Assembly: GCA_016219965.1 (NCBI GenBank)
Contig: JACRJM010000013.1
Coordinates: forward strand, 1-10,329
Origin: Candidatus Schekmanbacteria bacterium
Lineage (GTDB): Bacteria; Schekmanbacteria; GWA2-38-11; J061
Length of the DNA: 10,329 bases
Direction: 5' to 3'
Shown: one piece after another, positions 2,772 through 6,560 of the stretch
Position numbering within the stretch: position 1 is the first letter of the stretch
Layout of the letters: each line of letters starts with the position of its first letter
Notes under the pieces: model-generated
Seen by the model: only the letters and a program-made list of their open reading frames with translations
What the model was told of the DNA's origin: nothing
Databases searched by the model: none
Program-made: the position numbers and the translations under genes

Positions 2772-2899
2772 TATTTCTTCCCTCCCACTGTAACTTCGAC
2801 AATGGTCATCGTGTCGTTGCCGAAGATGTCCACCACCTTGACAGCCAGCTCGCGCCGCACCGAAGGGCATTCGTGAAAAACGCTGGTGAGTTCGCCCTC
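2771..2899 (-). pseudogene. DNA methyltransferase/R-M protein, C-terminal remnant
   Basis: The frame ending at the TAA that overlaps the KilA-N start reads ...EGELTSVFHECPSVRRELAV, then KVVDIFGNDTMTIVEVTVGG and KK. 'VKV(I/V)DIFGNDTM' is a tail I associate with proteins of type III-like restriction-modification operons, most likely the methyltransferase or its fused partner. Everything upstream is replaced by transposase sequence, with the joint between about 2893 and 2899. Identification is from memory of this tail and from its coupling to KilA-N and Res-like genes. Confidence 0.45.
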
Positions 2900-3277
2900 A
2901 CAGGATTTTGTTCTATGTATCTTGCCACTGCCCATAAATACTTTTCCTTATCCACTACACATGAATGATATCTGCTCTCCCATAACCTGCCTGTCCTCTT
3001 GTATGTCCTGTTGAAGTATTGAGTATAGCAAAGGGTTATACCCTGCATCATTTTGTATAACGACTCATTTTTTATCGGCCTTGTCAGAAAATGCACATGA
3101 TTACTCATAAGACAGTAGGCAAGGATGTATGTATCCCATTTACCTGAATATTCTTTGAGGAGTGACAGATATTTCTTTTTATCCCCCTCGTTAATAAAAA
3201 CTCTTTCTCTGTTGTTGCCTCTTTGAACAACATGATGGGGGAAATTCTAATGCAACTGCTCGTGCTATCCGTGGCAT
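2893..3277 (-). pseudogene. REP-associated tyrosine (Y1) transposase, frameshifted and truncated
   Basis: From ATG at 3277 the frame reads MPRIARAVALEFP. A run of five C (plus-strand G 3237-3241) shifts it; with four C, as in copy A at 1681-1684, it would continue PHHVVQRGNNRERVFINEGD and LAYCLMSNHVHFLTRPIKNE. HxH in 'NHVHF' is the metal-binding motif of the IS200/REP (Y1_Tnp) family, and 'RLWESRYHSCVVD' and 'ARYIEQNPVRA' are also family blocks. The family normally runs about 200-240 residues; here it stops after about 130 at the joint with the methyltransferase tail. It is dead twice over. Such enzymes move single-stranded copies of themselves or of REP hairpins. Confidence 0.8.
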
Positions 3278-3333
3278 GTTGGGGTACTAAAGTATAGTTG
3301 TCTTTTTGTCAATTAAATGGGATGTGTCCCTAA
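3232..3333 (-). repeat. 102-bp repeat copy B (element end plus transposase start)
   Basis: The second copy of the repeat seen at 1677-1778, in the same orientation. It holds the element's 5' end, with TTAGGGACACATCCCA on the minus strand at about 3334-3319, and the transposase leader and first 15 codons with an intact ATG (3277-3275). Its outer end lies inside the attC of the TIR cassette, so the element landed in, or recombined with, that recombination site. Confidence 0.7.
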
Positions 3334-3400
3334 ATTCCTCCTCCTTGAATAAAAACCACCAGAGGCTAATCCCGGTCGGCTCGATGGCTTTGTTGTACGC
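3334..3400 (-). other. attC site of the TIR cassette, truncated
   Basis: On the minus strand the TIR cassette ends with GCGTACAAC (3400-3392), the exact complement of its first bases GTTGTACGC (4924-4916), as required for R'' and R' of one attC. It continues AAAGCCATCGAGCC, a plausible L'' arm, but the complementary L'-R' half is missing: the transposase element begins at 3333. The cassette could no longer be excised as a unit. Confidence 0.55.
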
Positions 3401-3458: not shown

Positions 3459-4853
3459 TCAAAAGCTCAAATTAAAATCATCGATTAAATCAATTATTAC
3501 GTCAGAAGGATCGAGTTTTTTATATTTCCGTCTCAGCATTTCTTTTAAGTGATCATTGGAAACAAAAAGCACTAGCTTGTTCTGTTCTATGAATGTATCC
3601 TTTCTTTTTTCTATCCCACTATTATTAGGCAGTTTTCTGCTACAAATAATACCAAAGCGTCCAATGGTCTTCTTTAAATAATCACTGATTTGTAGAATAG
3701 TTTGTTTGTCTATATCACTACCCTTCTCTGAATAATTATTGAACTCGACCACGATATATTTGGCGTCATAATCCTCGCGTATAAATCTCCAATTCTCTTC
3801 CTTACTTCTATTCGGAAATATTGCATCTCTTATGTCAATTCCTGATTGTCTTCGTGATTGAAGTTTAGGTGTACCGAGGGGAGGCACAAATAATTGTGTT
3901 AATATCTTAACGCAAATGTCCTCGTATTGCTTCCATCCTTTTTCTCCTTCGGAGCAATTATCGAGTTCCTGTATTAACTGTTGGATGTTGCTAAACTCCT
4001 TATCGATAAGTTTCACTTGCCTTGGTTCTTTTAATGGTTTTATTGAAAAATATTTTTCAAGTATGTCTGGAGACGTATATAATTTGTTAAGTAACTTTTG
4101 TTCTTCCCAAACAACAATATTAGTAGCTGAATGAGAAAGAAAATCTCTTGAGCTGTTGGTCAGTTCTGAGTTAGTTACAAGGAATACCTTATCTGCTTTC
4201 TCAGATAAAGACAGAGAGTAAAGCTGACGTAAAATATCAATAGATATCTTTTGATTATTGTAAAATTTTGTTTCAATTAGAATTTTATCATTAGACTCAA
4301 ACTTATTGGGAATTGTAGCAACAAAGTCAAAGCCGCCATCGCGAGTTTTAGGAGTTCTTGAAATTGCAAAACCTTCTTTAGTAAGCAACTCGTAAATTAA
4401 GTTCTCGAAATCCTTATAATTAAGTTTTTTCCAATCTAGTTTAGAATAAGTTGCTACTGGGGCTAATTTTATTTCTTTAATCAGATATTCTAAACCTTTC
4501 TCTCTATCCTTTGATAAGTCAATATATAAGTAACCTGCAATATCTGTTGGAATGACTACATCATCGATTTTTAGTATGATAATTCTGATACCTTTTGTAA
4601 TCGAATTATGTAGTAAGGCGGAATTAAACTCATGTCTAACCCATTCTGATTTTGACGAGTTCTTACTAAAAACAACTATTATGCTGCTACTGGCTTCAAG
4701 TCCTTCTTTAATTCTCTGTTTTATGCTGTCGCCGAGCTTTATTTCATTTGAGTCATACCAAGTATTAATATTGCTCTCATTAAGTTTACGCGTCAGCCAG
4801 TCAACAAATAACTTGTCGCTGTGAGAGTAGCTTATGAATATTTTAGTTCTCAT
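3459..4853 (-). CDS. TIR domain plus restriction-endonuclease-like domains, probable anti-phage effector (464 aa, integron cassette)
   Basis: Domain order by inspection: TIR (residues 1-130) with FISYSHSD at 6-13, 'WYD...EI.LGDS' at 32-43 and 'SEWVRHEF' at 69-76, whose Glu75 aligns with the catalytic glutamate of TIR NADases. Then an Mrr-like nuclease domain (about 140-270) with FENLIYELL, D176 in GGFDF and E194-T-K196, a complete D...ExK site. Then a second REase-like domain (about 300-460) with YEDICVKIL, GIDIRD at 338-343 and VVEFNNY, where the expected ExK is E370-F-N372, so it may be inactive. TIR domains cleave NAD+ or signal; Mrr-like domains cut DNA. The combination suggests an abortive-infection or modified-DNA-dependent defence protein. 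It is the only gene of a cassette bounded by GTTGTACGC and GCGTACAAC. It is visibly AT-richer than the genes at either end of the window, which fits horizontal origin. The ribosome site is weak (GAGAAC, 7 bases before ATG). Confidence 0.85.
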   Translation of the reverse strand: MRTKIFISYSHSDKLFVDWLTRKLNESNINTWYDSNEIKLGDSIKQRIKEGLEASSSIIVVFSKNSSKSEWVRHEFNSALLHNSITKGIRIIILKIDDVVIPTDIAGYLYIDLSKDREKGLEYLIKEIKLAPVATYSKLDWKKLNYKDFENLIYELLTKEGFAISRTPKTRDGGFDFVATIPNKFESNDKILIETKFYNNQKISIDILRQLYSLSLSEKADKVFLVTNSELTNSSRDFLSHSATNIVVWEEQKLLNKLYTSPDILEKYFSIKPLKEPRQVKLIDKEFSNIQQLIQELDNCSEGEKGWKQYEDICVKILTQLFVPPLGTPKLQSRRQSGIDIRDAIFPNRSKEENWRFIREDYDAKYIVVEFNNYSEKGSDIDKQTILQISDYLKKTIGRFGIICSRKLPNNSGIEKRKDTFIEQNKLVLFVSNDHLKEMLRRKYKKLDPSDVIIDLIDDFNLSF

Positions 4854-4915: not shown

Positions 4916-4984
4916 GCGTACAACACGATGCTCACCAGCGTGGCGCGCCGTTTTGCCACGTCCGGTGGAGCTATTTGTTAGCTG
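4916..4984 (-). other. attC recombination site between the HNH-like and TIR cassettes
   Basis: Read on the minus strand: R'' CAGCTAAC (4984-4977), L'' arm AAATAGCTCCACCGGACGTGGC, loop AAAACGGC, an answering arm GCCACGCTGGTGAGC, then R' GTTGTACGC. The arms pair along CTCCACCGGACGTGGC/GCCACGCTGGTGAG with unpaired extra bases on one side, which is the hallmark by which integron integrases choose the attC bottom strand. The core matches the Y-A-A-C...G-TT pattern. This is the only complete attC in the window. It contains the stop codon of the HNH-like gene (4973-4971). Confidence 0.8.
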
Positions 4985-5402
4985 TTTTTACTACTTTCTT
5001 GCACAAATCCACGAATTCTTTATAGGACAGGTCGTTCTTTGCATCATTAGTTCTCCAAGAGCATATCTTAAATTCTGCTTTGCCTTTTCCATCGCCAACG
5101 TGATCGGCTGATGGAAGGAGGGCGAACTTCTTCTTGTACTGCCTCCCCTGTTCCTTGGATTCGTTATTATCGTATTTACTTAATAGATGCCATTCTAACT
5201 CTTCCCCAGTATAGACGTCGTTGCCCTTCGACTCATTGACCGCATTATGGATCTCGATTTTATATTATTCGGTTGTGGCTTCAGTGTTTCCTCGCCCCCT
5301 ATCCCGTCTTACATGCGATGCAGCCTTTCTATGCAGCCAAAGTTCGTAATGTGCCTGGGTGATCTTCCCTTTAAGGAATGTCGGCAATTCGTATTTTCTC
5401 AT
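4971..5402 (-). pseudogene. HNH-like cassette protein with one internal stop codon
   Basis: The frame from ATG at 5402 reads MRKYELPTFLKGKITQAHYE, then ...RRDRGRGNTEATTE and meets TAA at 5267-5265. Past that single stop the same frame continues for 97 sense codons (YKIEIHNAVNESKGNDVYTG, ...SADHVGDGKGKAEFKICSWR, TNDAKNDLSYKEF...) to TAG at 4973-4971 inside the attC. The 'YTGE...DH...F.IC.WRTNDAK.DLS' order resembles HNH endonucleases, and I recall similar proteins as frequent integron cassettes. GAA to TAA (one G to T change) would explain the stop. The ATG is 9 bases from the cassette boundary. A longer N-terminus reading into the MITE is false. No frameshift is present, so either a recent nonsense mutation, a sequencing error, or readthrough. 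Confidence 0.65.
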
Positions 5403-5410
5403 TTTCTTTT

Positions 5411-5422
5411 CAGCTAACCATT
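5411..5422 (+). other. Left part of attI copy 2, split from the rest by a MITE
   Basis: CAGCTAACCATT is the core site of head 2; on the minus strand GTTAGCTG begins the HNH-like cassette. The continuation GATTGACAGG is found at 5561 on the other side of the inserted element, as shown by the uninterrupted copies at 280-294 and 6504-6524. Confidence 0.65.
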
Positions 5423-5554
5423 GATGACTTCGTAAAAAGTCATTATTGTCACCCTGAACTTGTTTCAGGGTCTCGTAACTTAGTAATTTTATTAGATGCT
5501 GAAACAAGTTCAGCATGACAAATTGGGCATTGTCCGACTTTTTACGAGTTCATC
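5423..5554. mobile_element. 132-bp MITE with terminal inverted repeats, inserted in attI
   Basis: The ends are GATGACTTCGTAAAAAGTC (5423-5441) and the reverse complement of GATGAACTCGTAAAAAGTC (5554-5536), imperfect 19-bp inverted repeats. Inside are two similar hairpins, CCCTGAACTTGTTTCAGGG and TGCTGAACTTGTTTCAGCA. ACCATT is duplicated at 5417-5422 and 5555-5560 (or ACCATTGAT if the element starts three bases later). There is no transposase, so it must have been moved in trans. Such 'CTGAACTTGTTTCAG' elements are widespread in bacterial genomes, and translations of them (MLNLFQHL...LKQVQGD) are often mis-annotated as proteins. Confidence 0.85.
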
Positions 5555-5862
5555 ACCATTGATTGACAGGCAAATTTGCCCTGATATTACTATATTGGCA
5601 TGCTTTTAGTGCAGTTTTGCCCGATGCCAATATCAAGGCATTATGCCTTGATAACGATAATATAAAGGTTTTACACATGCAGAGTCAAGACCAAAAGCCA
5701 AAAATACTTGACCAGGTCCGCAGCATAATGCGCCTGCACCATTACTCCATCCATACCGAACGGACTTACATCAACTTGATCAAACGATACATTGCTTTTC
5801 ATCGGATGAAGTCACGTAAAGACCTGGCGAATGGAGAACGCAGGATCGAGGCGTTTCTCACT
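5555..5862 (+). other. Integron head copy 2: attI remainder, integrase promoter region, intI start
   Basis: Best-preserved head. After the duplicated ACCATT come GATTGACAGG, the palindrome GGCAAATTTGCC (5569-5580), a 10-bp-arm inverted repeat (ATATTGGCAT 5592-5601, ATGCCAATAT 5624-5633), a 21-bp palindrome (5632-5652, arms ATCAAGGCAT/ATGCCTTGAT around one base), GATAATATAAAGG and the intI ATG at 5677. The 21-bp palindrome is conserved base for base in copy 1 and lies where the -35 region of an integrase promoter with GATAAT as -10 would be, so it may be an operator. Its arms do not match the LexA box CTGT-N8-ACAG. Confidence 0.7.
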
Positions 5863-5889
5863 CTAAATCAGCGGCGGGGTTTTACCTAG
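5677..5889 (+). pseudogene. intI: Integron integrase N-terminal stub 2
   Basis: Seventy codons begin MQSQDQKPKILDQVRSIMRL and HHYSIHTERTYINLIKRYIA. This is the SAM-like N-terminal arm-binding domain of IntI-type tyrosine recombinases: 'R..HYS..TE.TY..WI.R.I.FH' and 'IEAFLT' are family blocks. Homology stops after IEAFLT (5862), where the family continues with HLA; the last eight codons (LNQRRGFT) read attC sequence and end at TAG 5887-5889. Full-length IntI is about 320-340 residues, so nearly 80% including all catalytic residues is missing. The start is set by identity with copy 1 and by AAAGG at 5664-5668; an upstream extension of the frame to 5563 reads only attI. Confidence 0.8.
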
Positions 5890-6503: not shown

Positions 6504-6560
6504 GGCATAACCATTGATTGACAGGCAAATTTGCCCTTATATTATTATAACGATAATATA
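6504..6560 (+). other. Integron head copy 3: attI and end of the integrase promoter, intI lost
   Basis: GGCATAACCATTGATTGACA and the palindrome GGCAAATTTGCC repeat copy 2, but the roughly 70 bases carrying the two inverted repeats are deleted: TTATATTATTA is joined to TAACGATAATATA. Similarity ends at about 6560 and no integrase codons follow. The next 18 bases lead straight into the 3' end of the FAD-oxidoreductase gene, marking the edge of the integron-derived DNA. Confidence 0.65.

Follow-up and report, generated by a model that had tools for sequence, protein, structure and literature searches.

The gene at positions 3459-4853 of the DNA analysed here, a 10,329-nt stretch from a Candidatus Schekmanbacteria bacterium that as a whole we call the window, encodes a fusion protein that couples a TIR domain of the NAD-cleaving type to two DNA-nuclease folds. 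In relatives, the same parts are divided between two adjacent genes, gene A for a TIR-Mrr protein and gene B for a FokI-like nuclease. On the basis of the domains and folds observed, the operon and its fusion, the conserved sites and the cassette borders, we consider the chances about even that the fusion is the single-chain form of a two-protein defence complex, whose nuclease half would engage foreign DNA and whose TIR domain would consume NAD+. The gene and the domains of its product are located as follows.

3459..4853, minus strand: TIR-Mrr-FokI-like fusion gene, an intact ORF of 464 codons (464 aa)
4449..4853, minus strand: TIR domain, residues 1-135, with catalytic-type Glu75 (TIR_2 and structure match)
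4047..4430, minus strand: Mrr_cat nuclease domain, residues 142-269, with D176, E194 and K196 (Mrr_cat and structure match)
3462..4001, minus strand: second PD-(D/E)XK-fold domain, residues 285-464, with D343, E370 and N372 (model and structure match), a separate gene in relatives

The preliminary description of this DNA had read the gene as a cassette for a TIR domain and two nuclease-like domains; the gene is indeed intact and its product has three folded domains, and its strand has to be corrected to minus. The GC content of the gene is 0.329, compared with 0.411 for the window. An AlphaFold2 model of the fusion protein made from 27 sequences (mean pLDDT 86.4, pTM 0.51) consisted of three separate folded domains; by these values, each domain can be relied on but not the way the domains are placed relative to one another. 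Nuclease folds were thus present past residue 140, where the preliminary description had proposed that structure prediction be used to look for them. An Rfam scan of the window gave zero matches.

The Pfam profile TIR_2 matched residues 5-123 (E 1.1e-26; 94.1 bits against a cut-off of 28), and the glutamate proposed earlier as catalytic was found at its number, E75, within EWVRHE. The structure closest to the TIR domain was TIR-APAZ of SPARTA (Z 16.5, 132 aligned residues, rmsd 2.5), and AbTir (7uxu) was matched with a Z of 14.2; these NAD-hydrolysing TIRs were nearest both by structure and by sequence. In all gene A sequences that we aligned, archaeal and bacterial, the catalytic-type glutamate was invariant. 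By its fold and this glutamate the domain belongs to the bacterial TIR NADase type, and NAD+ turnover is predicted. Weak similarity to Thoeris ThsB models (ThsB_TIR, 3.4e-11; ThcB4, 8.9e-6) would fit a signalling function, in which a cyclic ADP-ribose-type molecule made by the TIR would activate the nuclease or nucleases of the same chain or of gene B. We regard such signalling as quite improbable: the nearest structures are SPARTA TIRs, domain profile scans of the fusion protein detected no ligand-binding domain of the SLOG, SAVED or Macro type, and a producer and a receiver in one chain would make a diffusible signal needless.

The middle domain matched Pfam Mrr_cat at residues 142-256 (E 3.6e-20; 72.7 bits against a cut-off of 21). 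The Mrr-like site suggested earlier was present at the numbers given for it, as D176 and E194-T-K196, and the aspartate and ExK were invariant in every gene A sequence aligned. By structure, residues 145-262 matched AF1548 (1y88; Z 13.9) and residues 135-271 matched AspBHI (4oc8; Z 13.3), and MspJI was also among the Foldseek matches. AspBHI and MspJI, which with AF1548 have the nearest folds, are modification-dependent enzymes. With its Mrr_cat domain, aspartate and ExK, this part can be classed as an Mrr-type restriction endonuclease for which DNA cleavage is predicted.

Over residues 285-464 there was no convincing Pfam match. Modelled alone, this third domain reached a pLDDT of 93.4 and aligned with the FokI cleavage domain (1fok; Z 11.8, 158 aligned residues, rmsd 3.5) and the small subunit of R.BspD6I (2p14; Z 11.7, 150 aligned), both of which scored well above the next structure groups. 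The model thus gives a genuine FokI-cleavage-like PD-(D/E)XK fold. RPB5, top-ranked by Foldseek (E 2.8e-3), was rejected, as FokI and BspD6I align over the whole domain with a much higher Z. The earlier suggestion of a third, REase-like region at about residues 285-464 therefore held for the fold but not for the site, which is ExN instead of ExK: it reads D343...E370-F-N372, with asparagine in place of the catalytic lysine. Every gene B sequence aligned kept the aspartate, the glutamate and the lysine, and asparagine occurred in the window copy only. In the wider family, all third domains examined had the ExK lysine, and the acidic site residue varied in two (YAKNY in L002, DPKNY in L076). The change from lysine to asparagine at residue 372 suggests that the second nuclease site of the window copy is probably dead or altered; the N372 codon may also be an assembly error.

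A tblastn search of plasmids and phages gave no match over 80% of the fusion protein, the matches being to Mrr plus third domain, the third domain or single domains only. Stand-alone proteins of ~340 aa, encoded on plasmids and on prophage-like contigs (Rhodococcus, Agrobacterium, IMG/VR contigs), matched residues 142-464, and both D-ExK sites were largely conserved in them. These TIR-less proteins, together with the AspBHI/MspJI-like and FokI-like folds, speak for direct restriction, in which both nuclease domains would be the effectors, as in a type IV-like enzyme, and the TIR would just assemble or regulate the complex; the TIR could then be a scaffold. As a variant, each nuclease domain would perhaps cut one strand, as in the BspD6I pair. 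We consider direct restriction unlikely, given that the TIR glutamate is invariant across archaea and bacteria and that the window copy lost one nuclease site yet kept this glutamate.

The third domain also occurred in other company. It was joined to a P-loop ATPase on Citrobacter/Klebsiella plasmids and in Klebsiella phage records (P0004, L025), to a helicase-like part (L031), to WD40 repeats (L039) and to the N-terminus of PDC-M36A (L041). Such varied partners indicate a mobile module, one without a Pfam family. In L076 (1495-2445), an Mrr plus third-domain protein is encoded beside a gene for a HerA/FtsK-like ATPase and another nuclease-like gene.

The composition of the fusion has its closest counterpart in a pair of genes. 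Genome G514 encodes the TIR-Mrr part (290 aa) and the third domain (179 aa) separately, in two ORFs that share four bases and whose products have 32% and 40% identity, respectively, to the window protein. A profile of the third domain only, searched against 84,980 species genomes, yielded 12 loci: a Thermoplasmatales archaeon, a Bathyarchaeota archaeon, five Nostoc, two other cyanobacteria, Tenacibaculum, a Flavobacteriales MAG and Actinacidiphila. One of the two non-Nostoc cyanobacteria, Snowella, apparently corresponds to G514. A TIR-Mrr gene lay directly upstream of the third domain in all 12 loci, mostly overlapping it by 1-14 bases, a count to be read with the interrelatedness of the cyanobacterial loci and with the fact that one query row was taken from such an operon. 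Since the query contained neither TIR nor Mrr sequence, the linkage was not created by the search. We conclude that a conserved gene pair is fused in the window gene, and the adjacency together with the natural fusion implies that the two halves work together. One of the 12 loci, that of Nostoc spongiaeforme (L046, 7983-8522), has a whole TIR-Mrr gene but lacks a full-length ORF for the nuclease gene downstream.

Profile searches of 386, 291, 388 and 394 genomes gave no second fusion of TIR, Mrr and third domain, and it was one of these searches that found the split version in G514. Among relatives of G054, 11 third-domain matches lay in open frames of 308-508 aa; the six examined for TIR fusions were all PDC-M36A-like, Mrr-third-domain or otherwise TIR-less proteins. 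With the whole protein as a single query, neither the genome nor the viral collections gave any relatives, the family being too divergent for that kind of scan. The one-gene system of the preliminary description is therefore accurate for the window, where there is one gene, but is an exception, as the relatives form a conserved two-gene operon that had not been foreseen.

The fusion gene lies in the remains of an integron, whose parts are the following.

5677..5889, plus strand: N-terminal fragment of an integron integrase, ~70 codons, in the divergent orientation relative to the cassettes that intI should have
5411..5425, minus strand: attI-like junction ATCAATG/GTTAGCTG before the first cassette
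4971..5402, minus strand: preceding cassette gene (MRKYELPTFLKGKI...DHVGDGKGKAEFKICSWRTNDAKND), with one in-frame TAA after ...TEATTE and otherwise whole
4916..4982, minus strand: attC-like site of 67 nt with the core GTTGTACGC at its end, the 5' boundary of the TIR cassette
3392..3400, minus strand: inverse core GCGTACAAC, where the TIR cassette's own attC begins, its remainder being truncated
3238-3317, with another copy at 1682-1761: 80-nt repeat that adjoins the damaged 3' cassette end

Read along the minus strand, these parts follow one another as attI-like junction (5425-5411), first cassette gene, attC-like site, TIR gene and inverse core (3400-3392). The core sites GTTGTACGC/GCGTACAAC reported earlier at the cassette ends were confirmed: the window contains GCGTACAAC exactly twice, at 3392-3400 (minus) and 4916-4924 (plus), inverted at the two ends, compared with 0.01 occurrences expected from shuffles. 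As expected of an attC, the core of the 4916-4982 site forms an imperfect hairpin (-15.1 kcal/mol, z -1.9; 8 of 200 shuffles were as good). Of the downstream attC, just the inverse core and a few bases are left, with no comparable hairpin (z +1.3). Thus, the reading as a single-gene integron cassette was borne out by the core sites, the upstream attC-like site and the orientation, but the 3' attC is damaged. The product of the first cassette resembles an integron-cassette protein of unknown function (DHVGDG...CSWRTNDAKND).

The integrase fragment matched Phage_int_SAM_4 (8.5e-9) and positions 1-51 of TIGR02249 (2.1e-8), a model that is not IntI-specific and also matches other tyrosine recombinases. 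Our assignment of the fragment to IntI relies on its position and orientation and on its resemblance to IntI N-termini. No match above the IntI cut-off, and hence no intact integron integrase, was found in the genome. The integron is a relic, and the TIR cassette has probably lost the ability to move on its own.

Further traces of integrons and other elements were seen in the window. Front ends, each with an attI-like ATCAATGGTT core and the promoter and 5' end of intI, occur three times in the same orientation (280-457, 5411-5726 and 6505-6549), the two longer copies being 88% identical over 172 nt; their own cassettes are a GNAT-like gene, the broken first cassette with the TIR gene, and a ParE-type toxin with antitoxin. 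Within the attI-like region, a 134-bp element at 5422-5555 resembles an inserted MITE, with 20-nt inverted ends (90%) and an internal hairpin (CCCTGAACTTGTTTCAGGGT). The 80-nt repeat (89%) brackets the gene of a KilA-N protein (1959-2870) and a truncated Y1 transposase (2806-3108).

The damaged 3' attC, the lack of an intact integrase in the genome and the lost catalytic lysine mean that the window copy may be decaying. Carried to its end, this would make the gene a mere relic, trapped in a dead integron and no longer under selection, and the fragmentary intI and the in-frame stop in the neighbouring cassette agree with it. We find that distinctly improbable, because the 464 codons are open without a frameshift, the TIR and Mrr sites are intact and all three domains were modelled confidently.

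A defence role of the TIR-Mrr/FokI-like family is plausible from its domain types, its scattered distribution across domains of life and some of its neighbourhoods. The Bathyarchaeota pair adjoins a complete type I restriction system, a DNA methyltransferase gene lies near one cyanobacterial pair, and the Actinacidiphila pair has genes for a phage-type integrase and for another Mrr protein around it. Among the cyanobacterial and Bacteroidota copies, several lie beside housekeeping or transport genes and not beside defence genes. A consistent position of homologues outside defence contexts, which the preliminary description had named as speaking against its proposal, was thus not seen. The scattered distribution, the low GC content and the carriage on a cassette suggest horizontal spread.

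SPARTA serves as the analogy for DNA engagement by the nuclease half and NAD+ use by the TIR; according to PMC11156904, its TIR hydrolyses NAD(P)+ once invading DNA is bound. In a defence complex of this kind, relatives would produce the TIR-Mrr protein from gene A and the FokI-like nuclease from the adjacent, mostly overlapping gene B. The Mrr and FokI-like domains would jointly bind, and in relatives also cut, foreign or modified DNA. This engagement would lead the TIR domains to assemble and hydrolyse NAD+, and the infected cell would halt growth upon NAD+ loss before phage release, as in SPARTA. With the lysine of the second nuclease lost, as in the window copy, the Mrr site could still nick or cut, and the third domain would serve mainly in binding or assembly.

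The components are of known kinds. PADLOC 2023 models matched single domains of the fusion only, with no named system of the same composition; NCBIfam 2026 had no model near its cut-off for gene A or gene B, and the open-licence papers searched gave no account of a TIR-Mrr plus FokI-like composition. As far as these three sources were searched, the combination is uncatalogued. We tentatively propose, at somewhat less than even confidence, that it represents an undescribed immune system of bacteria and archaea, which would unite a heteromeric nuclease and an NAD+-consuming TIR in one complex and which, in the window, would be compressed by the integron, with the third domain as a non-catalytic DNA-binding part. 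None of the defence catalogues searched contained this conserved TIR/nuclease pair of archaea, cyanobacteria, Bacteroidota and Actinomycetota, which would couple two immune outcomes that are usually separate, namely the cutting of DNA and the depletion of NAD+. Its occurrence as a natural fusion shows that the two products belong together and offers a compact one-gene construct for structural work.

Several known systems share parts with the fusion. A phage-defence candidate of PADLOC, PDC-M36A, has the third domain in common (residues 294-453, E 3.4e-23) but a different N-terminal part; the window protein covers positions 289-444 of its 457-position model, whereas L041 covers 1-457. Modification-dependent enzymes of the Mrr/MspJI/AspBHI type share Mrr_cat with D-ExK and the AspBHI fold (Z 13.3). 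In contrast to them, the fusion has a TIR and a second nuclease fold, and no recognised reader of modified bases (such as SRA) was seen. The FokI cleavage domain and the R.BspD6I small subunit share the fold of the third domain at an identity of ~10-12%, and their catalytic lysine is asparagine in the window copy. No ThsA-type partner, as in Thoeris, was found among the window proteins scanned with Pfam. Like the anti-phage cassettes carried by integrons (PMC12409362), the fusion is a defence-type gene between attC-like sites; here, however, the integron is degraded, the phylum is sparsely sampled and the defence role is predicted from sequence. According to a 2025 review (PMC12409362), integron-borne defence systems have a reduced size, which fits a two-gene system fused into one gene. 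From SPARTA the fusion differs in having no APAZ or Argonaute, residues 142-464 being an Mrr and a FokI-like fold, and no Argonaute was found among the window ORFs scanned with Pfam. What the two share is a TIR that is nearest in structure, the order of a TIR followed by a nucleic-acid-handling part and, in the relatives of the fusion, a two-gene operon.
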